Positions 3,994-60,263 of a stretch of DNA of 64,000 bases are shown one piece after another; the first letter of the stretch is position 1, and every line of letters begins with the position of its first letter. A model generated the notes under the pieces. That model worked only from the letters and a program-made list of their open reading frames with translations, did not search any database and was not told the DNA's origin. The position numbers and the translations under genes are program-made. The DNA comes from Desulfosarcina sp. BuS5 (GTDB taxonomy: Bacteria > Desulfobacterota > Desulfobacteria > Desulfobacterales > BuS5): positions 911,041 to 975,040 of the forward strand of contig NZ_CP087952.1 of assembly GCF_028752835.1 (NCBI RefSeq), written 5' to 3'.

Positions 3994-3994
3994 A

Positions 3995-17601: not shown

Positions 17602-17648
17602 CAAATATCACATTTTTTACTGGAACGCAAGTCATTAAATATTTTTTT

Positions 17649-20690: not shown

Positions 20691-20737
20691 CAAATATCAC
20701 ATTTTTTACTGGAACGCAAGTCATTAAATATTTTTTT

Positions 20738-21483: not shown

Positions 21484-21582
21484 CGGTCATCCTCCTTATA
21501 TAATATTACGTGATTTGAATGACCGATACTACCTTATTTGAATTTGTTTTTCATGCACGCTTGCCGAAAGGACACGATTACC

Positions 21583-21697
21583 ACAGTGGATGATTTCACA
21601 GCTCAAGAGGAATGGTCAAATTGGTTATTTAATTGAGAGTCAATTGGCGAAAAAAGATTTTTTGAATTTGCCGGATGATTACGAAATTGATAGTTAA
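21583..21697 (+). pseudogene. Ribbon-helix-helix-like passenger protein of IS3, second segment
   Basis: Continues the frame from 14307 after removal of one GATTACC: QWMISQLKRNGQIGYLIESQ then LAKKDFLNLPDDYEIDS and TAA at 21695. The clean rejoining of the frame supports a real small gene that was split recently. Confidence 0.6.
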
Positions 21698-21806
21698 GAT
21701 CGGACAAATTAAAGGAAGTAACAGGCAAGATTTATCAGCAATGGTGATCAATGTGAGGTTGTAAAAATAATATATTTTGGTGAATGCCCTATTCAACGTG
21801 CGGCAT

Positions 21807-21953
21807 AAGTTATAAACATATTAATATTGAATTTTAACAGTATGTTAATGAGATACAAAAAAGTTATAAACATTTTATCAATAAGTTATGAACATTTTAG
21901 AATGGTATTATTATTTATTAAATCAATTAGTTAAGTTGTTTATGAACATTTTT
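21807..21953 (+). repeat. Four iteron-like direct repeats
   Basis: AAGTTATAAACATA (21807), AAGTTATAAACATTTT (21861), AAGTTATGAACATTTT (21883) and a variant AAGTTGTTTATGAACATTTT (21933). They sit between the small ribbon-helix-helix-like gene and the IS3 right end in a very AT-rich stretch (21698-22074) with no gene. They could be binding sites for that protein or for the transposase. Confidence 0.6.
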
Positions 21954-22078
21954 ATGATAAACAGAAACATATTTTTTTTATTTACTATTATTTTTTTAAT
22001 TTTCAGGATTATTTATAGCTCAAAAGCGCACCTTAAAAAACCTTGTTTTTTGTCTTGACAATGGGGAGTACCTTAATG

Positions 22079-23849
22079 TCCCGCCTTGCAACGAGTCTGC
22101 CATTGGCAGAAACACAAACATTAAAAGATGGGCGATACAAGGTATCAGGGGAGGATAGCGAAGAGCGAACGAACCTGAGATAAACATTCGGAAGTCTTAG
22201 CAGATCATAGTACCGATGATTAAGAATTGAACTATCTTGATCGGAAAGGTGGGGAAGTGATGCCCAAGCGACCCACTGCAGGGAAGGTGAAGCAGGGTAT
22301 AACGTTTTTTTGGCAGGAATTATGGGAGATACACAGATGTCACAAACCATATCAACAAAAAGCCGAGAAATTGCAAGAACGGTCGCTTGCAATTCCAGAC
22401 CGATAGAATGGGGACAACCACCGGTGTTAACAGGTGGGTCATCCCTTATCAAAATCGAGCTGCTTGCTCAAAGTAATCCTGAACTGGTATTTACATCAGT
22501 AGTCCATCGGATAGACTTTGATTTACTGAAACAATCCTTTCGTAAAATTCGGAAAAGCAAATCTGCAGGAGTGGACAAGGTTACGGCAAAGGAGTATGCC
22601 GAAAATCTTGATCAAAACCTCTATAATCTGTATGAACGACTGCGGAGAGGACAGTACGTTGCGTCTCCTGTAAAGCGTATCTGGATAGACAAGGAAGGAG
22701 GGAAAAAGCGTCCAATTGGCATACCTGTACTTGAGGATAAAATTGTCCAGAAAGCAGCAGCAGCCATATTGAATGTCATATTTGACAGGAATTTTTACAA
22801 TTTTTCCCATGCATTCAGAAAAGGTCGGAGCCAACACATGGCAATCAAAGATTTACGTGAGCAATGCTTGAAGCAGAATATCAGCTGGATAGTAAGCGCA
22901 GATATTACAGGACTATTTGACAATATTAATCACGAGTTACTTAAAGACATGATACGTCGGAGAGTAAGTGACGGCGGAATGATTCGCCTGATAGGGAAGT
23001 GGTTGAATGCAGGCGTAATGGAGGAAGGCAACCTGACGTACTCTGAAACGGGCACTCCACAGGGAGGAGTAATTTCCCCTGTGCTCAGTAATATCTTTCT
23101 TCATTATGTTTTAGATGACTGGTACGTGAAAGAAGTGATCCCCCGGATGAAAGGGAGATGCTCCATCATACGCTGGGCGGATGATTTCATCCTCGGGTTC
23201 GAGTATGAAAAAGACGCATTGCGTGTCATGGATGTATTACCCAGGCGGTTCGAACAGTTCGAGCTGTCACTTCACCCGGAAAAGACAAAACTGATTCGAT
23301 TTTCCAAACGCATTAGCGGAAAGGGAAACGGGACGTTTGATTTTTTAGGGTTTACATTTTACTGGTCAAAATCATTAAAAGGGTACATGGTAATAAAGAA
23401 AAAGACGGCAAGAAAGCGTTCAAGCCGTTTTATGAAGAGAATATGGATATGGTGCAAGGATAACCGTCATAAGCCAATGGCCGAGCAGTATGAGATTCTT
23501 TGCAGTAAACTGCGAGGTTTTTACCAGTACTTTGGAGTAATAAGTAACTACAAAGTGCTGGAAGTTGTGTTTGAATATACTGAGAAAGCATGGCGTCGAT
23601 GGTTAAGCCGAAGAAGTCACAAGGGCGAAGTAATGTTCGAGGACTTGCGCACAACATACCCACTGCCATTACCCAGAATAGTCCATAATATTTGATGCCG
23701 TAAGGGCTGCAAAGTTATACGCCAAACGGGGTGTCGCCTGTTTGGTTGATAATCCGGTAAAAAGGATTTGAACCGAGGAACCGTATGAGGGAAATCTTCA
23801 CGTACGGGTCTGTAGGGGGGGCGTCGGGTAACCGATGCTCCTACCTGGA
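22079..23849 (+). mobile_element. Group II intron copy A, 3' part
   Basis: Bases 499-2269 of the intron, resuming after the IS3 element. The 3' end at 23849 is followed by the attC 3' portion. Confidence 0.9.
22322..23695 (+). CDS. ltrA: Group II intron reverse transcriptase/maturase (copy A)
   Basis: Identical to the protein at 9844-11217 (457 residues, RWADDF active site, no HNH domain). The gene is intact, but its host intron is interrupted upstream in the ribozyme, so this copy can only act in trans. Confidence 0.9.
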   Translation: MGDTQMSQTISTKSREIARTVACNSRPIEWGQPPVLTGGSSLIKIELLAQSNPELVFTSVVHRIDFDLLKQSFRKIRKSKSAGVDKVTAKEYAENLDQNLYNLYERLRRGQYVASPVKRIWIDKEGGKKRPIGIPVLEDKIVQKAAAAILNVIFDRNFYNFSHAFRKGRSQHMAIKDLREQCLKQNISWIVSADITGLFDNINHELLKDMIRRRVSDGGMIRLIGKWLNAGVMEEGNLTYSETGTPQGGVISPVLSNIFLHYVLDDWYVKEVIPRMKGRCSIIRWADDFILGFEYEKDALRVMDVLPRRFEQFELSLHPEKTKLIRFSKRISGKGNGTFDFLGFTFYWSKSLKGYMVIKKKTARKRSSRFMKRIWIWCKDNRHKPMAEQYEILCSKLRGFYQYFGVISNYKVLEVVFEYTEKAWRRWLSRRSHKGEVMFEDLRTTYPLPLPRIVHNI

Positions 23850-23961
23850 ACCCGACCGCCAACCGCGGTGCTTTTTTTGAAACGCTCTCTTCCGCATAAA
23901 TGTTGTCGTTTGCGGAAGGTCTTGCCCCGCATGTTGGCGGCCGGTGAGTTCATCGTTAGTG
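23850..23961 (+). other. attC site, 3' portion (after intron A)
   Basis: ACCCGACCGCCAACCGCGG pairs with GTTGGCGGCCGG near 23931-23942; the inner arms CTTCCGC/GCGGAAG and the end CATCGTTAGTG complete the site. Nearly identical to 328-432 and 52826-52937, as expected for one sedentary integron. The crossover G is at 23955. Confidence 0.75.
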
Positions 23962-24000
23962 ATCAAATATAATAAGTAATCATAGAGTTGGAGTAAATAT

Positions 24001-24663
24001 ATGGCGTATGTTAATGAAAGACCTAATATCCCCGCAGAAATCCGAAGATCCGTAGAAGTTGAGGCTGGTCATACTTGTTCTGTTAAAAATTGTATAGAAC
24101 ATAGTTACTTAGAAATACATCACATCAATGAGAATCGAAAAGACAATAGAAGAGAGAACCTTATATTACTTTGTGATAAACATCATAAAATGGCGCATAA
24201 GGGTATTATTGATAGAAAAGCTCTTAAGGAATACAAAAAACTTTTATCTGAAAATAATATCTCAACAGCTGTAAATGTTGACTTAGAGGAAATTAAAAGG
24301 GTTAAAGAATTTATCACAGAGTATCAGTATTTGTTCTCATGCTTATTTCAAAATGGTAGAGAGAACGCTTATTTCTTCGACTCACAAGCCTTTTCCCTTC
24401 TTGATTGTTTATTCAATATTGCTTGGATTGCAAATCCATTAAGGTCCTTTAACTCAAGAGCCCAAAAACTACAAGACGAAATTATTCACAATCTTCAACA
24501 GATTTATCATTCGTTTGATTTAGATAAGTATCAAGACATCGGGAAATCCTTAAAATATATGGCTCCTTATAATTTACCTAACCGAGATGAAGATATAGAG
24601 AATCGTAGGGAAAATATGGAAAAATGGATTCGTAAAATTTATGAATGTTCAGACGAAATCTGA
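24001..24663 (+). CDS. HNH endonuclease-domain cassette protein
   Basis: 220 residues. The N-terminal HNH domain (about 20-70) has Cys-x4-Cys (TCSVKNC), EIHHINENRKDNRRENLILLCDKHHKMAHKG, with the HH, N and H residues of the nuclease fold. The remaining 140 residues are helical with no recognised domain. An AGTTGGAG-type ribosome site precedes the ATG. It starts 45 bases after the attC crossover, so it is a cassette gene; its own attC is missing because a transposase fragment begins within 30 bp of the stop. A defence or restriction role is plausible but unproven. Confidence 0.8.
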   Translation: MAYVNERPNIPAEIRRSVEVEAGHTCSVKNCIEHSYLEIHHINENRKDNRRENLILLCDKHHKMAHKGIIDRKALKEYKKLLSENNISTAVNVDLEEIKRVKEFITEYQYLFSCLFQNGRENAYFFDSQAFSLLDCLFNIAWIANPLRSFNSRAQKLQDEIIHNLQQIYHSFDLDKYQDIGKSLKYMAPYNLPNRDEDIENRRENMEKWIRKIYECSDEI

Positions 24664-24692
24664 GCTGTATGGTGGACATTTTGTCGACGACT

Positions 24693-25488
24693 TTATTGGA
24701 CACTTTTTAAAAAATCGTACTGATTTTTAGCGCGCAGAAAAACACTACGATTATTCCACCACAAGGTTTTATTTTTACCTTTTTCTTTTAAGGATAAAAG
24801 CATTTTTGAGACATGATCTTCAATAGTCCCTTTTTTTTGCCAGTCCAAAAGAGTCAATATTAAGTTGCCGGAATGATCCTGCTCAATTTTACAGTTTCTT
24901 TTTTCAAATAGAAGCGTACGCATTTTTTGGAGGGTACATTTATTGCCATCAACTTTATTATAATACTGCCCCCCTAATTCTTTTAAAAAATACTCATAAG
25001 CAAGCCTGGCTACCATAACACAATAAAATTCAAATTCAACTTTTACTGGATCAAGACCAAAAATCTCATCTATAAAATAACTGGAAACAAGATCCTTGAT
25101 CCCATTTTCAATAACCCAACGAAAACGATATTTACGGAGAATGTCTTTTGAATGAAGTTGCAGGTTGGTAGAACTAAAACACCGTATGTTTTCAGTTTTT
25201 TTTTCTCGATCTCTAAGAATAACAATTTTCATTTCAAGCCCTGTTTTGGGTAATTTGACTTGTATTGCCTTGAATTCGTCATCCTTGTTAAAGGGTTCCC
25301 ATTCTTCATCGCTGTCTGTAGCAGGTTTGATTAATTTAAGAATTTGTTTATTTTTTTTTAGACAAATAAAAATATCACCATTTTTAAAAACAACCTTCTT
25401 ATAATAATGGAAGTCTTTTTCTTTGGTATATTCTGAATCAATATAAAGTTCTTGTACGGCTAAGGGATCTAAAATTGGAAGAATATTT
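24693..25488 (-). pseudogene. DDE transposase, N-terminally truncated (IS4-like)
   Basis: About 265 residues. RKYRFRWVIENGIKDLVSSYF carries the glutamate of the DDE triad in an R-W-IE context typical of IS4-type transposases, and a second acidic motif is IDSEYTKE near the start. The N-terminus is removed by the IS66 terminus at 25489. The element's outer end probably lies at 24665-24692, where TGGTGGACATTTTG begins; no matching partner end is in the window. Confidence 0.65.
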
Positions 25489-25614
25489 GTGTCCTTTCGG
25501 CAAGCGTGCATAGCGCAAAAAAAAATTTGGCGTAGGTAAGCAGTCAGCGGTTAGGTGCCTGTTTTTTGCAGGCACCCGGCTGATCAATCAGGATGGAAAT
25601 ATTAAAAAGTGATT

Positions 25615-27174
25615 TTATGCTTCAGGATTGTCCGGTTCAATCAGTGCGGATTTATAATTCCACGGCATCCATTTATCTGGGGATTCTGACAACTCAGAGG
25701 CATGTTCCAGCAGTGCTGTCAGGTAATCAAAAGGATTGGTACCGGATAAATTACAGGTATGAATCAGACTCATGAACAGATCACCTACCATGGCACCATG
25801 CTCAGTTTTATAAAACAGAGCATTCTTGCGATGCAGAACGACCTTTTTCAAAGCCTGTTCGCAAATATTGTTGTCCAAAGGTACACCTGGTTCCCTGAGA
25901 AAAAGGGTCAACGCCTCCCAATGTTTGAGCATGTAGCCAATAGCCTGGCCCAGCCCGCTGTTGGGCTCCACCAAATGTTGGTCTATTTGTTTGTGAAACC
26001 AGGTGTTGAGCTTTTTCATCAGCGGACCGCTGTTGTCCTGATGAAACCGTAGCCGTTCTTCAGCTTCCATGTTCTGTTCTTTGGTAATCTTATCATTTTT
26101 ATATACCTCTGCGAGGATTTCGAGTACATAACTGCACTCTTCCGGGAAGCTTTGCAGTACGTCAACAAACTGTCTTCGTCCATGTGTAAGACAATTTGCC
26201 AGCAGAGTTTCGAATTCTTTGGGAACATTTCTGGACAGAGCATCACACATCTGAATGGGTGGGCTCAGACCAATACGACGCTTAAGTAAATCCATCAAGT
26301 TTTCTCCGGCATGCTGACGGCCGGTAAAAAACAGTGCAATTTTATGATCATCGGTTTTTGACAGTATACCCGTGGTAAATATACCTTTACGTTCCGGGTT
26401 ATTTTCTTTGTTTTCCTTCATCAGGGACAAAACCTTCATAGTGGTGTCATCATTATGAATGATATCGCCCTGAGCGCCCTGACGGATAAATTCCTGATAA
26501 ATCGGAGTAAGTTCCATTGCCATTTGATCGACAATCTCGAACTGTGTCGATGCAGGCAATGGTATGCCAAGACTTTGCTGAAGATCTTTAAGTCTGTTAA
26601 ATGGCATACCGGTACCATATTTCAAAAGAGCAATCATGGCCTTGGCTTTTGCATCATATTTGTCTTCACCCACATTTTCAGGTGTCGATGCGGTGAAAAT
26701 TGCTCCACAGAGATTACAGCGTAAACGCTGCATTTCATAGACAGTTCCACTTAATGGAGCGTTTCCGGTGATGCGTATGATTCGCTGCGGCTCCTTTAAT
26801 TCATATACCTTGCCCTTTAAACATTCAGGGCAGTTGTCTCCAGGTTTAAGAGTATCATGGAAGACTCTGACTTTTTTTGCCCCGGTATAATTTTTAGCAG
26901 GTTTGCGGCCATGACCTTTTTTAGCTTTAACAGAATTCTTCTTTTTTGGGTGAGCCTTTGTTTTTCCAGTTTTTTCGGTAGTTGCACCAAACAGCATGCG
27001 CAACAGCCGTCGTATGGAGGCGGCTTTATTGTCCACACACTGACTTAAAAGGTAGATAGTGTCAGCCATAGCCTTGATGAGTTCATAGTCCTCAGGTGGC
27101 AACAGTTCTTTAACACGCTTTAAAAGAGCATCTAACTGCTTGACGTCCAGGTCTATACGTTCCGGGGTCTTCAC
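25615..27174 (-). CDS. tnpC: IS66 TnpC transposase (copy h)
   Basis: Intact 519-residue copy with GTG start overlapping the DUF4338 stop; same motifs as copy e. Confidence 0.93.
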   Translation of the reverse strand: MKTPERIDLDVKQLDALLKRVKELLPPEDYELIKAMADTIYLLSQCVDNKAASIRRLLRMLFGATTEKTGKTKAHPKKKNSVKAKKGHGRKPAKNYTGAKKVRVFHDTLKPGDNCPECLKGKVYELKEPQRIIRITGNAPLSGTVYEMQRLRCNLCGAIFTASTPENVGEDKYDAKAKAMIALLKYGTGMPFNRLKDLQQSLGIPLPASTQFEIVDQMAMELTPIYQEFIRQGAQGDIIHNDDTTMKVLSLMKENKENNPERKGIFTTGILSKTDDHKIALFFTGRQHAGENLMDLLKRRIGLSPPIQMCDALSRNVPKEFETLLANCLTHGRRQFVDVLQSFPEECSYVLEILAEVYKNDKITKEQNMEAEERLRFHQDNSGPLMKKLNTWFHKQIDQHLVEPNSGLGQAIGYMLKHWEALTLFLREPGVPLDNNICEQALKKVVLHRKNALFYKTEHGAMVGDLFMSLIHTCNLSGTNPFDYLTALLEHASELSESPDKWMPWNYKSALIEPDNPEA

Positions 27175-28049
27175 TGTGTGTCCCCCCGTAAAAGGCTGCG
27201 AAAATTTTTGGCTAATGGATATCCCCAAACAGCCTTTATAGATCGGTTCGGTTTAAATGTCTGATCATTTTTACCCCTGCCGGTGGTGTCTCCAAGATAC
27301 TTCCAGTTCGCAGCCTTGTAACAGGTACCGGCAAAACGGGTTTTGTCCACAAAAGTTTCAAGGTACCAGATGGGATGATTGTAGATTTTACGCCAATCCA
27401 GGGCCAAGATTTTTATCATGTGACCAAGAAGATGGGAGGCCAGATGTGGTACGCGCACCCATGGTAGAATTAAAAATCGTGTATTATACGCCAAAAGGTG
27501 CAGATTTTTTTTACGCGTCTTCGCATCCCAGCCGATAAACCTGTCCCTGCAGCCTATATGCCTCGCTGCAGAAGACCAGGCAAAACATGCTATTGGCCGC
27601 CCATCAGTATAAACGATGTATTTCAGCTGTTCGCCCACTGAATGGCAGTAACCCAGATAATGGTAATACTCGATCAGGCTGTTGAACATTTTTTCATGCG
27701 GGCTTCTGCGTACCTGGCAAAATTCAAGCGGCCGTATTTTGGCTAATTTTGTTTCCAGTAAAGTTTGATTGATCTGAATTTTTTTAGGTTTTCTACGTTC
27801 TACAAATGGATTATGGGGATTACATTTTTTGTCCGGCAGACGTATGAATCCTGCACGGTGCAGTTCTAACATCATACCCCGACAGACCATATCACGCAAT
27901 GCCCCATTGGCCTGGACCCAATTCCAGGCTATGCACAGTTTTCTGGAAAGCGCCCGGCGGCTGGCATCCGGATTTTGAGCAATAAGCTCCTTGATAAAAA
28001 TAATATCTTTGTCAGTAACGACTCTGCCTCTATACGTAAACATGGGCAT
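27171..28049 (-). CDS. DUF4338 (DruA-like) passenger (copy h)
   Basis: Intact; the Ser form (GYCHSVGEQ), as in copy e, which suggests these two copies are closest relatives. Confidence 0.8.
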   Translation of the reverse strand: MPMFTYRGRVVTDKDIIFIKELIAQNPDASRRALSRKLCIAWNWVQANGALRDMVCRGMMLELHRAGFIRLPDKKCNPHNPFVERRKPKKIQINQTLLETKLAKIRPLEFCQVRRSPHEKMFNSLIEYYHYLGYCHSVGEQLKYIVYTDGRPIACFAWSSAARHIGCRDRFIGWDAKTRKKNLHLLAYNTRFLILPWVRVPHLASHLLGHMIKILALDWRKIYNHPIWYLETFVDKTRFAGTCYKAANWKYLGDTTGRGKNDQTFKPNRSIKAVWGYPLAKNFRSLLRGDTQ

Positions 28050-28096
28050 CAAATATCACATTTTTTACTGGAACGCAAGTCATTAAATATTTTTTT

Positions 28097-28459
28097 CTAT
28101 TTTTTTACAGGAATTGGCCGCCACAATGGTGCAACATGAGCCTTTACAGGATTACCGTTCCAGATCAGAAGCTGCAGTTCATGAACGGCCAGAGGCCTGA
28201 CCGCCTCACCGGATTTGTTTGGCCACCAGTTGAAACGTCCCTTAGACAGCCTTTTCTGACACATCCAGAATCCTTGGCCATCATACATAATGATCTTTAT
28301 GGCAGTTGCCTTTTTATTACGAAAAATAAAAACATACCCTGAAAATGGATCGGAGCGCAGCACCTGCCGACAAACAGCATTTAGACCGTCGATACCTTTT
28401 CTGAAATCCACCGGGTCTATGGCCAGCAGGATACGCATTTGCGGAGTTATCTGAATCAT
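28097..28459 (-). CDS. tnpB: IS66 TnpB (copy h)
   Basis: Intact copy, identical to the others. Confidence 0.92.
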   Translation of the reverse strand: MIQITPQMRILLAIDPVDFRKGIDGLNAVCRQVLRSDPFSGYVFIFRNKKATAIKIIMYDGQGFWMCQKRLSKGRFNWWPNKSGEAVRPLAVHELQLLIWNGNPVKAHVAPLWRPIPVKK

Positions 28460-28842
28460 GGCTGACTCCAAAACTGTTGGGTTATATTGATCAAGTCAGA
28501 ACTGTCCGCAATTTGCATTGTCATCCTGGCACCGTTCTGATGTTGCATCTCGATAATGCCCTTGAAAGGCAAAGGGGCTTGGGCTACATCAAGTTCGATG
28601 AAAGATGCCGTCGGCACGGACGGATTTGGTGATATATTCTGGACGTAATGCTTTAGCTTGGTATGGTTGAGGCTCAAGGCTTTTGATATACGGTGCAGAG
28701 AATAGGCAGGGTATAACGAGGCAGCGGCTTCCCATAATGCTTCCGGAATGGCTTTACCTCTATCCCGGCTGTTACGCCATTGTTTAAATTTTTCCCGTAC
28801 TTCATCCAGACTGTACTCGCCTGAAGGCTGCATAAGATTCAT
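28456..28842 (-). CDS. tnpA: IS66 TnpA (copy h)
   Basis: Intact copy, identical to the others. Confidence 0.9.
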   Translation of the reverse strand: MNLMQPSGEYSLDEVREKFKQWRNSRDRGKAIPEALWEAAASLYPAYSLHRISKALSLNHTKLKHYVQNISPNPSVPTASFIELDVAQAPLPFKGIIEMQHQNGARMTMQIADSSDLINITQQFWSQP

Positions 28843-28934
28843 CGGTCATCCTCCTTATATAATATTACGTGATTTGAATGACCGATACTACCTTATTTGA
28901 ATTTGTTTTTCATGCACGCTTGCCGAAAGGACAC

Positions 28935-51210: not shown

Positions 51211-52518
51211 CAGTAGTGTCCGGTTAGGTTTTTGCATGTTATATGGGATAAAAAAATTAGAAAAATGTTCATTTTTTACTTGACAAACCAAATAAAAATT
51301 TTTTATCGTTTTGTTATAAAATATAATTATAACAAGGAGTTAAGACAAAAATGGACATATTCAATATCCCAAAAAAGAATTTTAATCCCCAATCTCATGC
51401 TCGATTTCTCAAACCTTTGCAAAAGATTTTTCCTGACACGCCACAGCTTAAATCCCGAGGTCACAGGCCATTGAAAATGACTTTTGAAGATCAGCTTCAC
51501 GCACTGATATTTTTCCATCTACAAGAACATGAATCAGCTCGTGATCTTATTCAACACCTTAAAGAAGACGATTTTGCCAAAGAATGTGTCGCTCCAGATG
51601 GAGGGATCAGTCGTAGCAGTTTTTCCGAAATTATCAATTCTCGAGGGCTTGAACAGCTTGAATATGTTTTTCAAGCTCTTTGCAGCCAGGCACAAAATGC
51701 TTTACCATCAAATTATTCAGATCTCGGTGAACTCGTTTCCATTGATGGATCTTTAATTGATGCAGTTCTGTCCATGTACTGGGCTGATTACAGAAAAGGC
51801 GCTAAAAAAGCAAAAGGCCATTTCGGCTTTGATGTCAATCGCAAGATTCCTATAAAAATTCATCTGACAAATGGAAATGGCGCTGAACGCCCCTTTGTCA
51901 GGTCTATCCTTACAAAAGGCCAAACAGGAATCATGGATCGGGGGTATCAATCACATAAGGATTTTGATCTTCTTCAGGATGAAAAAAAACATTTTGTTTG
52001 CCGCATCAAAGCGAAAACAACAAGAACTATTATCAAAGAGCAGCCTGTTGATCCCGACAGCTATATTTTTTATGATGCTGTGGTTCTTCTTGGCACTCCT
52101 GGGGTAAACCAGACCAGAAAGCCGGTTCGACTGGTTGGTTATAAAATTGCCGGTGTCAAATATTTTGTGGCAACTGATCGTTATGATCTTACAGCCGAGC
52201 AGGTTGCAACCGTTTATAAGCTTAGATGGGATATCGAAACTTTTTTCAAATGGTGGAAGAAACATTTAAAAGTGTACCACTTGATTGCTCACAGTAGATA
52301 TGGCCTGATGGTTCAAATCCTTGCGGGGTTAATAACCTACCTGCTTATGGCCATATACTGCCATGAACAGTTTAATGAACCTGTATCAATAAAGAGGATT
52401 CGTCAGCTTAGAAATACCATCCAGAACGAATTACGTACTGACGAAAAAAACGTATGGTCTAATAATCTGATTATCAAAGAGCAAATGCTATATGCAAAAA
52501 CTTAACCGGACACTACTG
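51211..52518 (+). mobile_element. IS4-family element, intact copy 2
   Basis: 1308 bp between CAGTAGTGTCCGGTTA ends. Flanks differ (ATTGTC versus ATTTTC), so no duplication. It joins the minus-oriented cassette array to an intron 3' end, which suggests recombination between IS4 copies. Confidence 0.93.
51351..52505 (+). CDS. IS4-family transposase (copy 2)
   Basis: 384 residues. N-terminal DUF4372-like region (FNPQSHARFLKPLQKIFPD), DDE residues in LVSIDGSLID, TGIMDRGYQSH and YKLRWDIETFFKWWKKHLKV (Y-2-R-3-E-6-K signature). AAGGAG upstream of ATG 51351 and a TTGACA at 51280 as possible -35. Confidence 0.93.
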   Translation: MDIFNIPKKNFNPQSHARFLKPLQKIFPDTPQLKSRGHRPLKMTFEDQLHALIFFHLQEHESARDLIQHLKEDDFAKECVAPDGGISRSSFSEIINSRGLEQLEYVFQALCSQAQNALPSNYSDLGELVSIDGSLIDAVLSMYWADYRKGAKKAKGHFGFDVNRKIPIKIHLTNGNGAERPFVRSILTKGQTGIMDRGYQSHKDFDLLQDEKKHFVCRIKAKTTRTIIKEQPVDPDSYIFYDAVVLLGTPGVNQTRKPVRLVGYKIAGVKYFVATDRYDLTAEQVATVYKLRWDIETFFKWWKKHLKVYHLIAHSRYGLMVQILAGLITYLLMAIYCHEQFNEPVSIKRIRQLRNTIQNELRTDEKNVWSNNLIIKEQMLYAKT

Positions 52519-52567
52519 ATTTTCAGAGACACTTTTTAATCACCTGCATTGTTTTGTAGGGACTACC

Positions 52568-52825
52568 GGCGTCGATGGTTAAGCCGAAGAAGTCACAAGG
52601 GCGAAGTAATGTTCGAGGACTTGCGCACAACATACCCACTGCCATTACCCAGAATAGTCCATAATATTTGATGCCGTAAGGGCTGCAAAGTTATACGCCA
52701 AACGGGGTGTCGCCTGTTTGGTTGATAATCCGGTAAAAAGGATTTGAACCGAGGAACCGTATGAGGGAAATCTTCACGTACGGGTCTGTAGGGGGGGCGT
52801 CGGGTAACCGATGCTCCTACCTGGA
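52568..52825 (+). mobile_element. Group II intron 3' fragment (copy E)
   Basis: Last 258 bases of the intron, including 34 codons of the RT tail (stop at 52669-52671) and domains V-VI. The 5' part is lost; 49 unassigned bases separate it from the IS4 end. Confidence 0.88.
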
Positions 52826-52937
52826 ACCCGACCGCCAACCGCGGCGCTTTTTTTTAAACGCTCTCTTCCGCATAAATGTTGTCGTTTGCGGAAGGTCTTG
52901 CCCCGCATGTTGGCGGCCGGTGAGTTCATCGTTGGGC
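52826..52937 (+). other. attC site, 3' portion (after intron E)
   Basis: ACCCGACCGCCAACCGCGG...GTTGGCGGCCGGTGAG...CATCGTTGGGC; R' GTTGGGC matches GTTRRRY. Same site type as 328-432 and 23850-23961. Confidence 0.8.
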
Positions 52938-53029
52938 ATCATCCACACCTACTTGCTCTATATTCCTTCTTGCAGAAAAAATATAAAAAAAGCTTTACCT
53001 AACAGGTTAAATGAATTATCATCTTGATA

Positions 53030-53368
53030 ATGCATATAATTTTTAAAACGAAACGATTAGAAAAAGAACTTAATTTTTCTAAAAAATTAATTAAAAAATA
53101 TGGCTCGAAAACTACTCGTTTCATTATGAGACGTATGAAAGTTCTTGCGGCGGCAAATTCTTTAGCAGATGTTCCTCATCAGCCCCCAGAAAGATGCCAT
53201 CAATTATCAGGGGGTCGTGATGAACAGTTTGCTGTAGTAATTAGAGATCAATGGAGGCTAATTTTTGTCCCAAACCATGAAACAATCCCCCGAAAAAGGG
53301 ACGGCGGGATAGAATTATCCCAAATAACAGCAATCGAAATAATATGGATTGGAGACTATCATGAATAA
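53030..53368 (+). CDS. HigB-like toxin (RelE superfamily)
   Basis: 112 residues. LEKELNFSKKLIKKYGSKTTRFIMRRMKVLAAANSLADVP...HQLSGGRDEQFAVVIRDQWRLIFVPNHE...ITAIEIIWIGDYHE is the HigB-type toxin paired with HigA-peptidase proteins. ATG 53030; stop overlaps the downstream start. The gene follows the attC at 52826 as a cassette. Confidence 0.88.
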   Translation: MHIIFKTKRLEKELNFSKKLIKKYGSKTTRFIMRRMKVLAAANSLADVPHQPPERCHQLSGGRDEQFAVVIRDQWRLIFVPNHETIPRKRDGGIELSQITAIEIIWIGDYHE

Positions 53369-54470
53369 TATAGAAACAAATGCTTACCAGCCAGATTATA
53401 CTATACATCCTGGTGAAATTTTAGAAGAAACCTTGGAGGCAAGAGGCATAAAAAAAACTGCTTTAGCAGAGAGATGTGGCATTACATTAAAAACAGTCAG
53501 CCAAATTATTAATGGTAAGGCTTCAATTTCCCCGTCAATAGCGATCAGGCTTGAAAGAGCTATTGGTGTTTCAGCTTCTTTATGGAGCAATCTTAACACT
53601 GACTACGAACTATTTGTTGCAAGGGAGAAGGATCACGCTTCCCTATATAAACAAAAACAATGGGTGAAAAAATTTCCCCTTCAGCAGCTATCAAATTTAG
53701 GTATTCTTCCTCGCAAAAAAAATCTAACAGAAAATCTTTCAAACCTGTTATCTTTTTTTGGAGTAAGCACTATCTCTGCATGGAATAATTTCTACTTAGC
53801 TCCAAATGTCGCTTATCGTCGTTCTGTAGCTTATAAAAGCCAACCAGAATCTATCGCTACATGGCTCAGAATTGGTGAACTAATGTCTGAATCTGTCGAA
53901 TGTGCTCCATTTAATAAAAAAAAGTTCAAAGTAGCTCTTTCGGAAATTAGAAAAGTAACTAATGAGCCAGTTGAAATATTTCAAAAAATCATGATTGAAA
54001 GTTGTCGTAAATCAGGGGTTTCATTAGTTTTTGTGCCAGAACTGTCAAAAACGCATGTAAGCGGCGCTACTAAATGGCTAAATACTAATAAAGCTATGAT
54101 TATTTTAAGCTTAAGACATAAAATGGATGATCACTTTTGGTTTAATTTTTTCCATGAAGCTGGTCATATCTTACTGCATGGCAAAACTGAAGTTTTTATC
54201 GAAGCAAACAATCACATTGAAAAAAGTGAAAAGGAAGTCGAAGCAGATGTTTTTGCCTCTAACATTCTAATCTCAAAATCTAATTATAAAAAGTTAACCT
54301 CATTGACTAAATTTTCAAGACAATCAATTTCAGCGTTTGCAAAAGAATTAGACTTGTCTCCAGGCATTATTGTTGGAAGACTTCAACATGACGGTTTAAT
54401 ACCATATAGTTGGCTTAATAAACTTAAAAGAAAATTTGCTTTCAGTGCCCAACAATCGCATACACTCTGA
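53361..54470 (+). CDS. HigA-like antitoxin fused to ImmA/IrrE-type peptidase domain
   Basis: 369 residues. The XRE domain with the HigA signature HPGEILEETLEARGIKKTALAERCGITLKTVSQIINGKASISPSIAIRLE occupies 15-75. The C-terminal domain has the zinc motif NFFHEAGHILLHGK (HExxH-like, about 265-278) with downstream EADVFASNIL, as in ImmA/IrrE (M78). ATG 53361 has GGAG at 53351. It would bind HigB and repress the operon; proteolysis is inferred from the motif. Confidence 0.9.
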   Translation: MNNIETNAYQPDYTIHPGEILEETLEARGIKKTALAERCGITLKTVSQIINGKASISPSIAIRLERAIGVSASLWSNLNTDYELFVAREKDHASLYKQKQWVKKFPLQQLSNLGILPRKKNLTENLSNLLSFFGVSTISAWNNFYLAPNVAYRRSVAYKSQPESIATWLRIGELMSESVECAPFNKKKFKVALSEIRKVTNEPVEIFQKIMIESCRKSGVSLVFVPELSKTHVSGATKWLNTNKAMIILSLRHKMDDHFWFNFFHEAGHILLHGKTEVFIEANNHIEKSEKEVEADVFASNILISKSNYKKLTSLTKFSRQSISAFAKELDLSPGIIVGRLQHDGLIPYSWLNKLKRKFAFSAQQSHTL

Positions 54471-54575
54471 CACCCAAAGCCGAGCCATTTTTTCCATTTG
54501 TGTAATACATCATAAAAAGTACCATTTATCAACTCCTCATTGGCTTTGGGTGCAGGTGATGCGTACGTTAGCACA
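54445..54575 (+). other. attC site after the HigB/HigA-peptidase cassette
   Basis: R'' GCCCAAC fits RYYYAAC exactly. Arms AACAATCGCATAC/GTGATGCGTACGTT and ACCCAAAGCC/GGCTTTGGGT pair with offset bases. It overlaps the end of the antitoxin gene. Confidence 0.9.
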
Positions 54576-54901
54576 AACATACCATCTCATGGAATGGTAA
54601 AGGTAGTAAGGAAAGTAAACGTCGGCAGTGGGGGTCTACTTTCTATCAACTGAATGTTGGAGATCAGATCGAAACTAAGAAGATGGTTTTAATCCGGTAA
54701 ACAGGAGGCTGAGCTGTGGGATAACAGACCCGGATGAATTCAGAAAATATTATCAAGATTTAATAATGCTCGGGGCTCGGGGAAAAAGGCTTGGGGTGTG
54801 AGGCTTGAGGTTAGAGGAGTAAGGCAGGTTCGGGTGAAATAAACGGCAACGGCATTTCACCGGGCAGGCAGCAGGCAGCAGGCGGGGGGATGGGAGATAA
54901 C
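54576..54901. other. Intergenic, no gene
   Basis: The next cassette start is present, but no coding sequence is seen. G-rich short direct repeats (GGCAGCAGGCAGCAGGC, 54867-54883; GGCTCGGGG/GGCTTGGGG near 54773) precede the next gene. Confidence 0.4.
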
Positions 54902-55954
54902 ATGATGGAAAATCGTCGTTTTCAGATTAAAGTTGAGGGATCTGCTGTTCAGGAAGGGCAGATTTCCTTTGCGCTGTTGGGGCAGATATTAAAAGGCATC
55001 CAGGATACTGTATACTATCTGGCTCTTGCTGAGTTGCAGCATGATTATCGTCAACGGATTCGGGTTCCTCTGGAAGTTAAAAAAGCCTGCGCTATTTACA
55101 GAGTCTTGGAAGAAAAAGGGAGCTACTGTCTAACTGCTGAAATCGCACCGGCACAGCGGATTGGCGAGATTGAGGATATTGGATTGTCGGTGAAGGAAAA
55201 ATATCTTGAGGTCGTGAACTGTCTGAAGGAATCCAGCTTGGAAGGATTGAAAAACTTGATTCCGGACAGTAATTACCGGCGGAAGGTTTTGCGGACCATC
55301 GTTTCCTATTGTCCAAAGAATGGTGCAAAATGGCATGTCGGCATCGGAGCTATAGGGCAAATCATGACAATCTTGCGGCCTGAACTCGCTAGGTCGATCC
55401 GAGATATTCTGGTACCTCCGGCCTCCGAGCAAAAGACGATATCCGGTGAACTGGTTCAGATACATCTTGATGAGAATACGTTGGGACTTTTTTATGCCCC
55501 TGCTCAAAAAGTGATCCGTTGTACGTACGACCCGGAGTTGGAAGATTTTATCGTATCCAATGTGCGCGAGATCATCCAGGTTCATGGGAAAGTTCAGATG
55601 GACAGTAGAGGTATTCCTGAGAAAATAGTCGATGTGCTGGAAATCGAGGAAATTGACGTGAGCCCCCTTGAGGTTTCGGAAATCCATGCCGACGGGCATG
55701 TGCTGATGCTTCATGAAGAGCTCAGCGTCCCTGTTGTCTTTGATCCGGAGAGCCAGGAATTTACATTGGATTATCAAGATGTGGGTATTGTTCTCGGAGC
55801 TGAAAATCGAGAAGATCTTCTGGCTGAGTTTTGTGCTGATTTCTATTGGGTTTGGCAGGAATATGGCAAAGATGTTGAAGGAAAGATGAGCAAAAGTGCC
55901 GAGAAGCTCAGGTCGAAGATACGTGATCTGGTCAAAGAGGAAAAATCATTATGA
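54902..55954 (+). CDS. Unrecognised 350-residue protein paired with a HicA-like toxin
   Basis: Begins MMENRRFQIKVEGSAVQEGQ. Mixed alpha/beta, acidic, soluble; no membrane segment. Residues 120-160 are basic-aromatic (NYRRKVLRTIVSYCPKNGAKWHVG). The C-terminal 90 residues (IHADGHVLMLHEELSVPVVFDPESQEFTLDYQDVGIVLGAENREDLLAEFCADFYWVWQEYG) look like a separate domain that could serve as the antitoxin part. GGGAG at 54892 supports ATG 54902 or 54905. The stop overlaps the HicA-like start by four bases. No known family recognised. Confidence 0.7.
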   Translation: MMENRRFQIKVEGSAVQEGQISFALLGQILKGIQDTVYYLALAELQHDYRQRIRVPLEVKKACAIYRVLEEKGSYCLTAEIAPAQRIGEIEDIGLSVKEKYLEVVNCLKESSLEGLKNLIPDSNYRRKVLRTIVSYCPKNGAKWHVGIGAIGQIMTILRPELARSIRDILVPPASEQKTISGELVQIHLDENTLGLFYAPAQKVIRCTYDPELEDFIVSNVREIIQVHGKVQMDSRGIPEKIVDVLEIEEIDVSPLEVSEIHADGHVLMLHEELSVPVVFDPESQEFTLDYQDVGIVLGAENREDLLAEFCADFYWVWQEYGKDVEGKMSKSAEKLRSKIRDLVKEEKSL

Positions 55955-56238
55955 ATCCAAGAAACCGGAAAGACGTGGAGAAGGCACTTGAGCGGAAAGG
56001 GTTTACCAAAAACCAGGGGGACCACCGAAAATTTATATATCATCTGTTGACGGGCGAAAAAACCGCTGTCTGGACCAAGACAAGTCATGGTAGCAGTCAT
56101 AGTGAGATTTCTTCATCCAACCAACGGAAAATGGCCAAGCAATGCAAGCTCCCGAACAAAGACTTCGACCTATTGATGGATTGTCCCCTGAGCCGGGAAG
56201 AGTATCAGAAAAAATTGGATGAATGTGGGTGGTTGTAG
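55951..56238 (+). CDS. HicA-like toxin
   Basis: 95 residues. RNRKDVEKALERKGFTKNQGDHRKFIYHLLTGEKTAVWTKTSHGSSHSEISSSNQRKMAKQCKL matches the HicA double-stranded-RNA-binding-like fold, with the GDHRKFIY histidine region that is catalytic in HicA. HicA usually pairs with a HicB antitoxin; here the ATGA-overlapping partner upstream is not HicB. Confidence 0.75.
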   Translation: MNPRNRKDVEKALERKGFTKNQGDHRKFIYHLLTGEKTAVWTKTSHGSSHSEISSSNQRKMAKQCKLPNKDFDLLMDCPLSREEYQKKLDECGWL

Positions 56239-56453
56239 AAGGAGAAAGAAAGGGAGACACCTTAGTCCTACGGGAGATTATTTCTGTGCCTGCAATTGTG
56301 TTAGGTTGATTTTAGAGCTGAAGAGTCTGAAAATCATTGATTTCAGACATATGAGTTTAATAGAGGGCATGAGCGGAAAAAAGCGGCAGCTAATAAATTA
56401 TCCTGGCGCTGATTTTCATAAACTAAAGATGCAACGCTAAGGGATATTGTCAT
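56239..56453. other. Intergenic remnant DNA
   Basis: No gene assigned; includes a short palindrome CTGAAAATCATTGATTTCAG (56328-56347). Confidence 0.4.
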
Positions 56454-56546
56454 ATGGAAACATTAATTGATGATAGAAAAATTAAGGTTCTCTTCAAGCA
56501 GGCGATTATCGAAGTTATTGAAGAGAAAAAGGAAGTTGTCCACTAA
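56454..56546 (+). CDS. Very small ORF, possibly a truncated antitoxin
   Basis: 30 residues: METLIDDRKIKVLFKQAIIE then VIEEKKEVVH. It resembles the first helices of small antitoxin-like proteins (LFKQAIIEVIEEKKE). It may be a remnant. No partner gene follows. Confidence 0.35.
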   Translation: METLIDDRKIKVLFKQAIIEVIEEKKEVVH

Positions 56547-56663
56547 TGAAGGGCGGATGGTTAATCTGGATGAGTCCGTTTAAAAATTCCTTGAATATGA
56601 CAAACGCATATTTGTTGAAAAAACAATCTGCCACATAACCATTTTGTTTTAAAGGAGCACACT

Positions 56664-56903
56664 ATGAAAGCAAAAACCGTTAAAATTGGTAACAATCTTG
56701 CATTCATGATACCCCAGTCAATCGCGGCAAAATGCAGGTTAGAAGAGAATGATTCATTCGATTTTTCGTTAAGAAAAGATGAGATTGTGATCAGATCAAT
56801 AAATAAACGGTATAATCTGTCTGATTTGCTGGCTGGAATCACGCAGGAAAACCTGCATGAAGAAGTTGGCAGGGACGAGCCTGTAGGCAAGGAGATTCTC
56901 TGA
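56664..56903 (+). CDS. mazE: MazE-family antitoxin (AbrB-type)
   Basis: 79 residues. KTVKIGNNLAFMIPQSIAAKCRLEENDSFDFSLRKDEIVIRSI is a swapped-hairpin AbrB/MazE DNA-binding domain; the C-terminus is the toxin-binding tail. AAGGAG precedes the ATG. Overlaps mazF by one base. Confidence 0.9.
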   Translation: MKAKTVKIGNNLAFMIPQSIAAKCRLEENDSFDFSLRKDEIVIRSINKRYNLSDLLAGITQENLHEEVGRDEPVGKEIL

Positions 56904-57241
56904 TGTACGTACCGGATCGCTGTCATGTCGTATGGCTGCAATTCAATCCTCAAACTGGGCACGAACAGGCTGGTCATCGTCCTGCATTGGTAATCTCTCC
57001 CGCAACATATAACGGCAAAACCGGACTTGCATTGTTTTGTCCGATCACGAACCAGATAAAAGGCTACCCTTTTGAGGTCAAGATCAAAGATAATCCAACA
57101 ATCTCTGGTGTTGTTTTGGCTGATCAGGTCAAAAACCTTGATTGGCGGGTTCGTGGTGTTAAATTTGTGACTATGGTGGATGAAACGCTGCTTGAAGAAG
57201 TGCTCTCAAAGTTTGAAGCATTAATACGGATGAATGAGTAA
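56903..57241 (+). CDS. mazF: MazF-family endoribonuclease toxin
   Basis: 112 residues. VPDRCHVVWLQFNPQTGHEQAGHRPALVISPATYNGKTGLALFCPITNQIKGYPFEV...LADQVKNLDWRVRGVKFV has the MazF hallmarks: GHEQAGHRPALVIS with the catalytic Arg, the CPITNQ strand, and the Asp-Gln-Val-Lys segment. Cleaves single-stranded RNA at specific sequences. Confidence 0.95.
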   Translation: MYVPDRCHVVWLQFNPQTGHEQAGHRPALVISPATYNGKTGLALFCPITNQIKGYPFEVKIKDNPTISGVVLADQVKNLDWRVRGVKFVTMVDETLLEEVLSKFEALIRMNE

Positions 57242-57274
57242 GTTTCAAAATTATTATCAATTTTTTAACTTATT

Positions 57275-57296
57275 AGGCCCTTCCTGGGCTTTTTTT
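57275..57296 (+). terminator. Rho-independent terminator of mazEF
   Basis: Short GCCC/GGGC stem (57277-57289) followed by seven T, 34 bases after the mazF stop. Confidence 0.7.
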
Positions 57297-57337
57297 CAAT
57301 ATTGGGGGTCTGACCCAGTTAAGTTCTACGGGAGTAT

Positions 57338-57484
57338 GGCGGCGCATCGGTTTTGGTGGGAAACCAGGTGGATAAAATTCGAAAAGCATATCGGGAAACA
57401 TTGACATTGAAACGAAAACCCAACCGTCCGGAATTGTGGGATGGGAAAACAGCAGGGCGGATTGTAGCGGCGTTGAGCGGTTAA
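57338..57484 (+). pseudogene. UDP-GlcNAc 2-epimerase (WecB-like), C-terminal remnant
   Basis: The reading GGASVLVGNQVDKIRKAYRE then TLTLKRKPNRPELWDGKTAG ends RIVAALSG. VLVGN...ELWDGKTAGRIV is the conserved C-terminus of WecB/MnaA epimerases. The rest of the gene is absent. The fragment begins next to a GGGTCTGACCC repeat (57306). Confidence 0.65.
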
Positions 57485-58304
57485 GTGATGGCACAAATGT
57501 CGAATCAGAAAGGAAAGAAGCATTCTTCCCGGACATTTTATGCAAAATATGGCAAGCAGGCTGGGTGCAGGTGAACGAGCGGGTTATAGGTAGTTTGACT
57601 CCGTTAAGTTGTAAAAAAGAACACCTTTTGAAATCTGAAACTCGACTATCAAGTTTTTAAAACTTGACTCTATAAATACAATATTTTCAAAGAGTTAAAA
57701 ACTTGATGCAAATATTTTGTTTTTACACCTCCAAAAGGTAACTTGTTGAATTTATTGATAGGGGGTTAAAATCGCAGTTTAAAAATATCCAATAAATTCA
57801 GTCAACTGAAAAAAACTTGATAGTCGAGTGAAAAGAATCGTTTTTATACCACTGCCATTGAAAATGGCGAGCACCTTACTGCCCTTATCTATTCTTGGGA
57901 ATTTCAGTTAAAAATACTTATTCCCCATAGTTCTAACCGAGGCTCTCCGACCGTCTGAAAACTGGGCTTTAATGGATGAAAATACAATTTTTTGGAACGA
58001 CTTCCCCTTTAAGAACGGATACTTGATGCTTTTTGCTAAGGAGTTACTCAGGAAAAGTTAAAAAAATTATCAGTCAAATATCATTCAGATTTGCATGATA
58101 TGCGGCTATCTATTAACACTCTGCATGATATGCGGAACCTTACAATTACTTGTTAGCCGTTTGTCTGTCATCGCATCTATGATAGAAAAATAGCTTTGAA
58201 CTTTTGGTAGACTAAAGTACAATCATCGTAGAAAATTTTATTGGATCAAAATTCTGACTATTTTCAGAGCTGTTAGCTCATAATCTGGAAAGTAGAGGGT
58301 AAAT
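57485..58304. other. Intergenic region with a MITE and paired direct repeats, no gene
   Basis: Besides the MITE at 57641-57828, the only structure seen is TGCATGATATGCGG at 58092-58105 and again at 58122-58135, exactly 30 bp apart. Confidence 0.5.
57641..57828 (+). mobile_element. 188-bp MITE with CTCGACTATCAAGTTTTT ends
   Basis: Perfect 18-bp inverted ends (57641-57658, 57811-57828) and 5-bp duplication TGAAA (57636-57640, 57829-57833). Noncoding. A related single end (AAAAACTTGATCATCGAG) is at 62127-62144. Confidence 0.85.
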
Positions 58305-58610
58305 ATGAATAAAAAGAATTTAAGCCTTGATGAGGCGTTGAAAGTTCTTAAAAAAAAGAAATTAGCTTTTGAAAAGAAATTTGGAGTTACTTCCATTGGC
58401 GTTTTCGGCTCTCTTGCCAGGAATGATCGAAGACCGAGTAGTGATGTAGATATTGTCGTAAGAATGAGCAAGCCTGATCTCTTTAATATGGTACACATAA
58501 AGGAAGAACTTGAGGCAGATTATCATACAAAAGTGGATATTGTTCATTATCGAGAAAAAATGAATACATTTTTGAAAAAACGCATCGACACTGAGGCCGT
58601 GTATGTTTGA
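58305..58610 (+). CDS. MntA-type nucleotidyltransferase antitoxin
   Basis: 101 residues. GVFGSLARNDRRPSSDVDIVVRM contains the GSx10DxD active site of minimal nucleotidyltransferases. In MntA-HepT systems this enzyme AMPylates the HEPN toxin. Overlaps the HEPN gene by eight bases. Confidence 0.92.
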   Translation: MNKKNLSLDEALKVLKKKKLAFEKKFGVTSIGVFGSLARNDRRPSSDVDIVVRMSKPDLFNMVHIKEELEADYHTKVDIVHYREKMNTFLKKRIDTEAVYV

Positions 58611-58955
58611 CAGGGAGCTTGCAAAGGAAATACTCAGGCAAATTCTGGCTGCTGCAAATCGTATCGAACGAAGATTCAAAGATGTTCGCAGTCCCGATGA
58701 TTTTCTCCTATCCGATGCCGGAATAGATAAGTTGGACGCCGTATGCATGATGTTGATTGTTATCGGTGAAAATTTGAAAAATTTGGACAAGGTAACCGGT
58801 GGAAAGTTGCTTGCTCAATACCCTGAAGTTGACTGGAAAGGGGCAAAAGGAATGCGTGACATTATTAGCCATCACTATTTTGATTTGAATGCCGAAGTGG
58901 TATTTTTCGTATGTAAAGATCGCATTCCAGGTTTGATAGAAACTGTAGTTCAAAT
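58603..58955 (+). CDS. HEPN-domain (HepT-type, DUF86) toxin, 3' end cut by IS4
   Basis: 118 residues remain of a normal 115-140. FLLSDAGIDKLDAVCMMLIVIGENLKNLDK and GAKGMRDIISHHYFDLNAEVVFFV carry the RNase motif R-x4-H (RDIISH) followed by Tyr, the residue AMPylated in HepT. Only a few C-terminal residues are replaced by IS sequence, so it may still fold. Confidence 0.85.
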
Positions 58956-60263
58956 CAGTAGTGTCCGGTTAGGTTTTTGCATGTTATATGGGATAAAAAA
59001 ATTAGAAAAATGTTCATTTTTTACTTGACAAACCAAATAAAAATTTTTTATCGTTTTGTTATAAAATATAATTATAACAAGGAGTTAAGACAAAAATGGA
59101 CATATTCAATATCCCAAAAAAGAATTTTAATCCCCAATCTCATGCTCGATTTCTCAAACCTTTGCAAAAGATTTTTCCTGACACGCCACAGCTTAAATCC
59201 CGAGGTCACAGGCCATTGAAAATGACTTTTGAAGATCAGCTTCACGCACTGATATTTTTCCATCTACAAGAACATGAATCAGCTCGTGATCTTATTCAAC
59301 ACCTTAAAGAAGACGATTTTGCCAAAGAATGTGTCGCTCCAGATGGAGGGATCAGTCGTAGCAGTTTTTCCGAAATTATCAATTCTCGAGGGCTTGAACA
59401 GCTTGAATATGTTTTTCAAGCTCTTTGCAGCCAGGCACAAAATGCTTTACCATCAAATTATTCAGATCTCGGTGAACTCGTTTCCATTGATGGATCTTTA
59501 ATTGATGCAGTTCTGTCCATGTACTGGGCTGATTACAGAAAAGGCGCTAAAAAAGCAAAAGGCCATTTCGGCTTTGATGTCAATCGCAAGATTCCTATAA
59601 AAATTCATCTGACAAATGGAAATGGCGCTGAACGCCCCTTTGTCAGGTCTATCCTTACAAAAGGCCAAACAGGAATCATGGATCGGGGGTATCAATCACA
59701 TAAGGATTTTGATCTTCTTCAGGATGAAAAAAAACATTTTGTTTGCCGCATCAAAGCGAAAACAACAAGAACTATTATCAAAGAGCAGCCTGTTGATCCC
59801 GACAGCTATATTTTTTATGATGCTGTGGTTCTTCTTGGCACTCCTGGGGTAAACCAGACCAGAAAGCCGGTTCGACTGGTTGGTTATAAAATTGCCGGTG
59901 TCAAATATTTTGTGGCAACTGATCGTTATGATCTTACAGCCGAGCAGGTTGCAACCGTTTATAAGCTTAGATGGGATATCGAAACTTTTTTCAAATGGTG
60001 GAAGAAACATTTAAAAGTGTACCACTTGATTGCTCACAGTAGATATGGCCTGATGGTTCAAATCCTTGCGGGGTTAATAACCTACCTGCTTATGGCCATA
60101 TACTGCCATGAACAGTTTAATGAACCTGTATCAATAAAGAGGATTCGTCAGCTTAGAAATACCATCCAGAACGAATTACGTACTGACGAAAAAAACGTAT
60201 GGTCTAATAATCTGATTATCAAAGAGCAAATGCTATATGCAAAAACTTAACCGGACACTACTG
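58956..60263 (+). mobile_element. IS4-family element, intact copy 3
   Basis: 1308 bp, apparently identical to copy 2. No target duplication (TCAAAT versus TCTGAA). Confidence 0.93.
59096..60250 (+). CDS. IS4-family transposase (copy 3)
   Basis: 384 residues, identical to the protein at 51351-52505. Confidence 0.93.
   Translation: MDIFNIPKKNFNPQSHARFLKPLQKIFPDTPQLKSRGHRPLKMTFEDQLHALIFFHLQEHESARDLIQHLKEDDFAKECVAPDGGISRSSFSEIINSRGLEQLEYVFQALCSQAQNALPSNYSDLGELVSIDGSLIDAVLSMYWADYRKGAKKAKGHFGFDVNRKIPIKIHLTNGNGAERPFVRSILTKGQTGIMDRGYQSHKDFDLLQDEKKHFVCRIKAKTTRTIIKEQPVDPDSYIFYDAVVLLGTPGVNQTRKPVRLVGYKIAGVKYFVATDRYDLTAEQVATVYKLRWDIETFFKWWKKHLKVYHLIAHSRYGLMVQILAGLITYLLMAIYCHEQFNEPVSIKRIRQLRNTIQNELRTDEKNVWSNNLIIKEQMLYAKT

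Follow-up and report, generated by a model that had tools for sequence, protein, structure and literature searches.

A probable Class 8-type HicBA pair in Desulfosarcina sp. BuS5 and relatives of its antitoxin front end in other two-gene modules

The locus studied here raises the question of what kind of system is formed when a short HicA-like gene overlaps a gene for a 350-residue protein of no obvious family. We examined this pair within a 64,000-nucleotide stretch of the Desulfosarcina sp. BuS5 genome (hereafter, the window). The initial annotation had offered two readings, a variant toxin-antitoxin or a defense pair with a separate sensor domain, and had held that the large partner is not HicB. 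We consider it very probable that the pair is a HicBA module, a type II toxin-antitoxin that belongs to Class 8 of Gerdes. The small gene probably encodes an RNA-cutting HicA toxin and the large gene its antitoxin.

The overlapping pair and its occurrence

Both open reading frames, and the ATGA through which they were said to overlap, are present in the window (Table 1). An in-frame ATG at 54890 is an alternative to the large-gene start at 54902 and would lengthen the protein from 350 to 354 residues. We scanned 84,980 genomes, one per species, with a pattern-based profile search and identified 11 relatives of the large protein, with 23 to 60% identity, in Desulfobacteraceae, Desulfatibacillum, and Betaproteobacteria. 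Contigs that duplicated one another, as judged from their length and identical scores, were counted once (L010 is the L002 contig and L014 the L003 contig; L-numbers are our locus identifiers). The small gene lies directly downstream in 11/11 relatives, and the two genes overlap by 4, 8, 11, or 20 nucleotides in all of them; in one (L019), the large frame is broken. A fragment of the large protein at a contig end (L004), where the neighbor is not visible, stands outside this count. The concern that the large protein might usually be found without a HicA-like gene was not borne out (0/11 genome relatives found). The reading as a variant toxin-antitoxin is supported.

The nearest relative, from a Desulfobacteraceae MAG of the same order (G295), is 56% identical, and that of Desulfatibacillum alkenivorans (G036), also of the same order, is 24 to 25% identical. 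The MAG also holds a broken second copy of the pair (L006, 281-1256), in which only the end of the large gene remains and the small-gene frame runs on into other sequence. In its own genome, the large protein occurs as a single copy. The same pair is carried by the Geminocystis plasmid pGM3709_06 and, with a 5-nt gap between the genes, by an IMG/VR viral contig (L101). The profile of the large protein did not retrieve any viral contig, and two queries of 50,697 phage records gave no match. A single-sequence query gave any match in 5 of the 297 genomes of the phylum and a full-length match in 3, own genome included. With the family profile, 1/369 genomes in the class of Tepidimonas matched, this being the Tepidimonas genome itself. 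The spread of the pair is patchy.

In the window, the pair sits in a cluster of four toxin-antitoxin-like modules within 6.4 kb (52519-58955). The cluster is flanked by two direct copies of a 1308-bp IS, identical to each other (51211-52518 and 58956-60263), and a third copy, 99.8% identical, lies at about 2688-3997. The cluster between the direct IS copies could be mobile as a composite unit. Elsewhere in the window (15038-28934), large repeats at 15038-18486, 18487-21575, and 25486-28934 are near-identical (99.9% over 3.1 to 3.4 kb), and parts of them recur in inverted orientation between about 6004 and 12898.

Table 1. Features of the gene pair, its neighbors in the cluster, and the head-domain pair (positions are those of the window unless a locus is named)
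Feature	Position	Strand	Remarks
Large gene, probable Class 8-type HicB antitoxin	54902..55954	+	350 aa; three domains
N-terminal alpha/beta domain, residues about 1-171	54902..55414	+	AF2 model; homologous to front of PDC-M32A, PIN-partner, and L005-type proteins
OB-fold domain, residues 173-253	55418..55660	+	VIA-align, best 50 rows Z 7.7-9.0
C-terminal HicB-like domain, residues 255-350	55664..55951	+	predicted HicA-binding antitoxin part; profile-profile comparison; AF2 strands then helices
Probable HicA-like toxin gene	55951..56238	+	95 aa; conserved G-D-H histidine (H25); two further C-terminal helices
ATGA gene overlap	55951..55954	+	translational coupling expected
HigB-like + HTH-M78 module			HigB-like 23.1 bits, under cut-off 27
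MazE-like + PemK module			MazE-like 19.9 bits, under cut-off 24.7
Nucleotidyltransferase (MNT) + HepT module			same cluster
Uncharacterized overlapping pair, upstream ORF + head-domain partner	L005 1147-2864; L103 1480-2702; L105 1959-2881; L106 2226-2842		candidate module

HicA-like and HicB-like parts

The top-scoring Pfam family for the small protein was PF07927 (HicA), at 21.3 bits against a cut-off of 27 that was not reached, and PHROG 353 ("toxin") matched with an E value of 1.4e-4. The PDC-M32B model did not match it in the PADLOC scan. The AF2 model (pLDDT 80.3) has a helix, two clear strands (the only two of at least 3 residues), and a helix, followed by two helices after the core at residues 69-77 and 82-91; the canonical third strand is not clear. 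The best solved folds were 1whz (Z 7.6, rmsd 2.2, 67 aligned) and 5yrz_B (Z 5.5, rmsd 2.1, 54 aligned), the latter a chain from an S. pneumoniae toxin-antitoxin complex, while the next row had a Z of 3.0. We take both chains to be HicA. As modeled, the small protein has the dsRBD-like HicA fold. D24-H25 is invariant in 12/12 aligned small proteins, as is the TKTSHG motif, and H25 aligned with the G-x-H of 11 HicAs from its own genome in a profile comparison (E 1.7e-7; 11 of the 12 fetched, with L055 left out). The Pfam shortfall counts against a strict HicA label; the fold, the histidine, and the profile comparison support membership in the wider HicA family. At E values up to 0.1, the genome (4.2 Mb) holds 18 HicA-like places, including that of the window, and 14 of these are over the Pfam cut-off.

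The AF2 model of the large protein (pLDDT 85.1, pTM 0.53) has three domains. The protein had no Pfam match up to an E value of 1, no PADLOC or PHROGs match, and a single chance-level match in NCBIfam (E 0.062). Curated HicB models from Pfam and NCBIfam did not match it up to an E value of 1, nor did the Pfam HicB models match any of the 11 family members. Foldseek with the whole model returned nothing at an E value of 0.001; OB folds filled the matches listed, and HicB chains were absent among them. Because one domain filled this list, the missing HicB chains are uninformative. The best 50 rows for the OB domain include PriB, SSB, RPA, and aminoacyl-tRNA synthetase OB folds. A sequence search of solved structures with the family profiles gave nothing useful. 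For the N-terminal domain, DUF7946 matched one of the 11 members (E 0.0024, below the cut-off) and was dropped; we found no paper on DUF7946 in open-licence PubMed Central.

The connection to HicB ran through a family of short proteins. Relatives of the small protein were found at 21 places in 16/297 genomes of the phylum. Setting aside the known pairs and the broken copy leaves 17 places, and 12 of the 17 have a plausible short upstream partner. Among the remaining five, L031 and L040 have no small ORF, L027 is cut by the contig end, L025 has no partner, and L032 has an unrelated short frame only. From the 12 loci, we aligned 10 partners of 112 to 150 aa, leaving out L035 and L024 (near-identical to L023). 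The C-terminal domain of the large protein matched this alignment with an hhalign E value of 4.6e-7 and a score of 43.1, compared to 17.6 for the best of 100 shuffles. The short partners in turn matched a set of 32 HicBs of the PF15919 type with a score of 46.2 (best shuffle, 18.4). This set came from 36 fetched loci; L041, L046, L078, and L080 were left out, and L047 and L048 were kept despite scores below the Pfam cut-off. Compared directly to HicB, the C-terminal domain scored 24.1 (probability 33.8%, E 4e-4; best shuffle, 15.3), while the unrelated N-terminal part scored 17.0 and the OB part 12.3. Since this direct match is only moderate, the HicB link rests mainly on the intermediate family. 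One short partner itself matched PHROG 497 ("HicB-like," E 0.0017) and, weakly, PF15919 (E 0.051). Small proteins also gave weak matches to Penicillinase_R and MecI, which we dropped.

Taken together, these comparisons, mostly through intermediate sequences, indicate that the C-terminal third of the large protein would be a diverged HicB-like domain. The claim that the large partner is not HicB did not hold: its C-terminal ~90 residues are assigned to such a domain, and the arrangement is that of Class 8 hicBA as set out in the passages on this class by Gerdes (PMC10865869).

The short HicB-like partners precede HicA relatives at L023, L026, L028-L030, L033, L034, and L037-L039. At 112 to 150 aa, they fall between Gerdes Classes 2 and 7 in size and possibly form an unlisted HicBA class.

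Relatives of the probable antitoxin's front end in other two-gene modules

The remaining two thirds of the large protein, the N-terminal domain (N-module) and the OB fold, have relatives outside HicBA. In the Class 8 protein of the viral contig, the OB part was matched by the PADLOC model PDC-M32A (E 2.2e-7), and of the Class 8 relatives tested this protein alone is hit; the window protein was unmatched in PADLOC, and its genome has no PDC-M32A match at an E value of 0.001. A search with PDC-M32A gave a match in 6/297 phylum genomes and in 0/14 control genomes. L107 matched the full model; in L108, L109, and L110 the match spanned the first 250 positions, in one genome (two places) only the tail, and in L112 positions 6-106. 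L108-L110 encode proteins of 303 to 307 aa, and the overlapping downstream ORF in each is a PIN-domain protein (PF01850, 35.4 to 40.0 bits against a cut-off of 23.6). A search of plasmids with the tail of one PIN-partner protein gave no match. The weaker relative L112 overlaps a DUF6932 gene (121.5 bits) and is tentative, with 30.0 over 85 columns and 23.8 against the M32 set. Four plasmid records hold further PDC-M32A relatives. The three that were opened (Limnohabitans, one Rhodococcus, and Rhizobium) each have an overlapping partner gene of 139 to 143 codons, and the products are homologous to one another and to the L107 partner (30 to 42% identity). The labels TPR-like, coiled, and VapC-like are presumptive, given in part by eye.

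A combined profile of four M32A and three PIN-partner proteins matched the Class 8 N-module and OB fold with a probability of 96.2% and an E value of 2.3e-9. The score was 69.4 over 236 columns, compared to 22.1 for the best of 30 shuffles and 25.3 for the best of 146 decoys, each scored on its own. As decoys, we took open frames of at least 250 codons at these loci and in the window, some of which may not be genuine genes. Taken by itself, the PIN-partner set scored 47.3 (best of 40 shuffles, 25.5), and the M32A set reached 45.8 (best shuffle, 18.8). Among single members, L109 (31.3), L110 (31.0), L116 (30.2), L114 (38.8), L103 (41.6, from an incomplete copy), and L005 (60.9) were above the best decoy, while three of the ten tested were at or near it (L107, 25.6; L108, 24.6; L115, 26.0). 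Since these three do not singly beat the decoys clearly, the claim of a portable module rests on the combined profiles.

A further arrangement was found at L005 and L103, where a head domain of ~110 residues is followed by the N-module (plus the OB fold in L005) and an upstream ORF of 191 or 178 aa overlaps the gene. The Class 8 profile matched the L005 module with 32.8 bits (best of 2000 shuffles, 6.4), and L005 and L103 aligned with an hhalign score of 66.8 (best of 60 shuffles, 19.7). Five plasmid records matched L005 in the head only, and in the two that were opened (Anabaena and Leptolyngbya) the gene ends after the head. Thus, one two-gene module occurs with and without the N-module and OB fold. 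The plasmid heads are homologous to those of L005 and L103 at 46 to 54% identity, and the upstream genes at 41 to 56% identity, the Leptolyngbya gene being annotated shorter. The 191-aa L005 protein had no Pfam match, and the L005, L103, and L105 proteins had no PADLOC or NCBIfam match. We regard the head-domain pair as a candidate new two-gene module of plasmids and chromosomes. Its upstream ORFs, of 178 to 191 aa (annotated shorter in L106), share a RLEVSGI stretch.

Our model for the window pair is as follows. The small protein would be a HicA-fold RNase that is toxic by cutting mRNA with the invariant H25 of its G-x-H motif, and the HicB-like C-terminal domain of the large protein would neutralize HicA by capping it. 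The N-terminal domain and OB fold would replace the HTH/RHH domain with which classical HicB binds DNA, and their most likely roles would be to keep the antitoxin oligomeric and to bind nucleic acid. Such binding could repress the operon, or it could sense an invader and release HicA. The separate sensor domain that the initial annotation offered as a possibility has become more plausible, because proteins paired with other genes also carry the N-module and OB fold.

The reuse of this front end beside different partner genes is most simply explained by a trigger or regulatory role in common, and it points to a portable regulator or sensor whose toxin-binding tails would be interchangeable. Tentatively, this unit could respond to a single trigger in all cases, perhaps single-stranded nucleic acid from phage, by releasing whichever toxin is bound to it. 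On that reading, the front end of ~250 residues may be joined to a HicB-like tail where the toxin is HicA, to a short tail where it is a PIN (VapC-like) protein, and to a different tail in PDC-M32A, an assignment we treat as a working idea. Other attachments are conceivable at a similar level of confidence, namely, a separate head with a partner of 178 to 191 aa and, possibly, a coiled head with a DUF6932 nucleotidyltransferase. Within the open-licence literature, the kinship of the Class 8 N-module and OB fold with the fronts of PIN-partner, PDC-M32A, and L005-type proteins appears to be new; we found no description of their sharing among toxin modules in open-licence PubMed Central papers (no preprints). 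If one module serves several unrelated toxins, its trigger could be studied once and tested in all, and it would also be a search handle for toxin-antitoxin or defense pairs missed by current models. The window protein and the three PIN-partner proteins match no Pfam family.

Other readings and comparison with known systems

The pair could instead be a defense system in which the large protein mainly senses invading nucleic acid through its OB fold and N-module, silencing HicA until infection in the manner of a two-gene abortive-infection switch. Its occurrence on a viral contig and a plasmid fits this reading, as does the front end held in common with PDC-M32A, a PADLOC phage-defense candidate, and with PIN-toxin partners. 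Its place among other toxin-antitoxin genes flanked by two IS copies also fits, but such genes cluster near IS elements without needing a phage-sensor role, and the large protein of the pair is unmatched in PADLOC. We regard a dedicated defense role as a possibility somewhat short of probable.

A narrower reading, about which we are rather doubtful, makes the N-module and OB fold only the DNA-binding autorepressor of the operon, in place of the classical HicB HTH/RHH. The passages on Class 8 in PMC10865869 report no recognizable DNA-binding domain, in line with the missing Pfam match here. An OB fold is capable of nucleic-acid binding, and an 8-bp inverted repeat (GGTGAAAT/ATTTCACC) lies 29 to 57 bp before the ATG at 54890. 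However, the usual ligands of OB folds are single strands or RNA, and the four upstream regions tested share no inverted repeat, two having none and the other two differing.

That the pair is a decayed relic with an inactive toxin is very improbable. In favor of decay, the small-protein Pfam score is below the cut-off, a related genome has a broken second copy (L006), and the large frame is broken in 1/11 relatives (L019). Against it, neither frame is interrupted in the window, the D-H and TKTSHG motifs are invariant in 12/12 small proteins, and a large protein 56% identical is kept with its small gene in another genus. The reading as a HicBA toxin-antitoxin module is the preferred one.

Among known systems, Panacea offers a likeness in promiscuous arrangement alone, with no relationship to the N-module and OB fold implied. 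In the parts of Ernits 2023 that concern it (PMC10440598), PanA is one antitoxin-side domain found with unrelated toxins and can be a platform for further neutralizing domains; HicBA escaped the toxin-antitoxin network described there. PDC-M32, which is mentioned in PMC12429752, resembles the window pair in the N-module and OB fold of its large protein and in its overlapping small downstream partner. Unlike that of the window protein, the PDC-M32A tail is not HicB-like (hhalign 11.5 and 11.0), and the PDC-M32 partner of L107 has no resemblance to HicA by eye and no Pfam match. The terms "OB-fold" and "OB fold" are absent from the available text of PMC11980606 and PMC2701414. Classical HicAB (Classes 3 and 4 in the class descriptions of PMC10865869) shares the HicA fold and histidine and the HicB-like antitoxin domain. 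Its gene order is reversed relative to the window pair, and in the window the HicB domain lies at the C terminus of a 350-aa protein with no HTH/RHH recognized.

The closest likeness is to Class 8 hicBA, known in Gerdes 2024 (mBio, PMC10865869) from sequence and models; we found no experiments on a Class 8 member in open-licence PubMed Central papers (no preprints). As printed there, Class 8 HicB has 331 to 356 codons (figure legend) or 342 to 356 aa (text), with domains at 1-171, 175-253, and 255-342 (HicB fold), and HicA has about 95 aa and two extra C-terminal helices. In the window, hicB lies upstream of and overlaps hicA, HicB has 350 or 354 aa with domains at ~1-171, 173-253, and 255-350, and HicA has 95 aa. 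We differ on two points from the Class 8 passages of that paper: the middle domain, lysyl-tRNA-synthetase-like there, is a general OB fold here, and the N-terminal domain, which there lacks significant similarity to any functionally known domain, has relatives in other two-gene modules here. Nothing in the window pair contradicts Class 8 hicBA as printed. Since sizes, order, and domain borders are the same, we assign the pair to the described class. The locus itself is then one more Class 8 HicBA pair, and the wider point is the unexplained front of Class 8 HicB.
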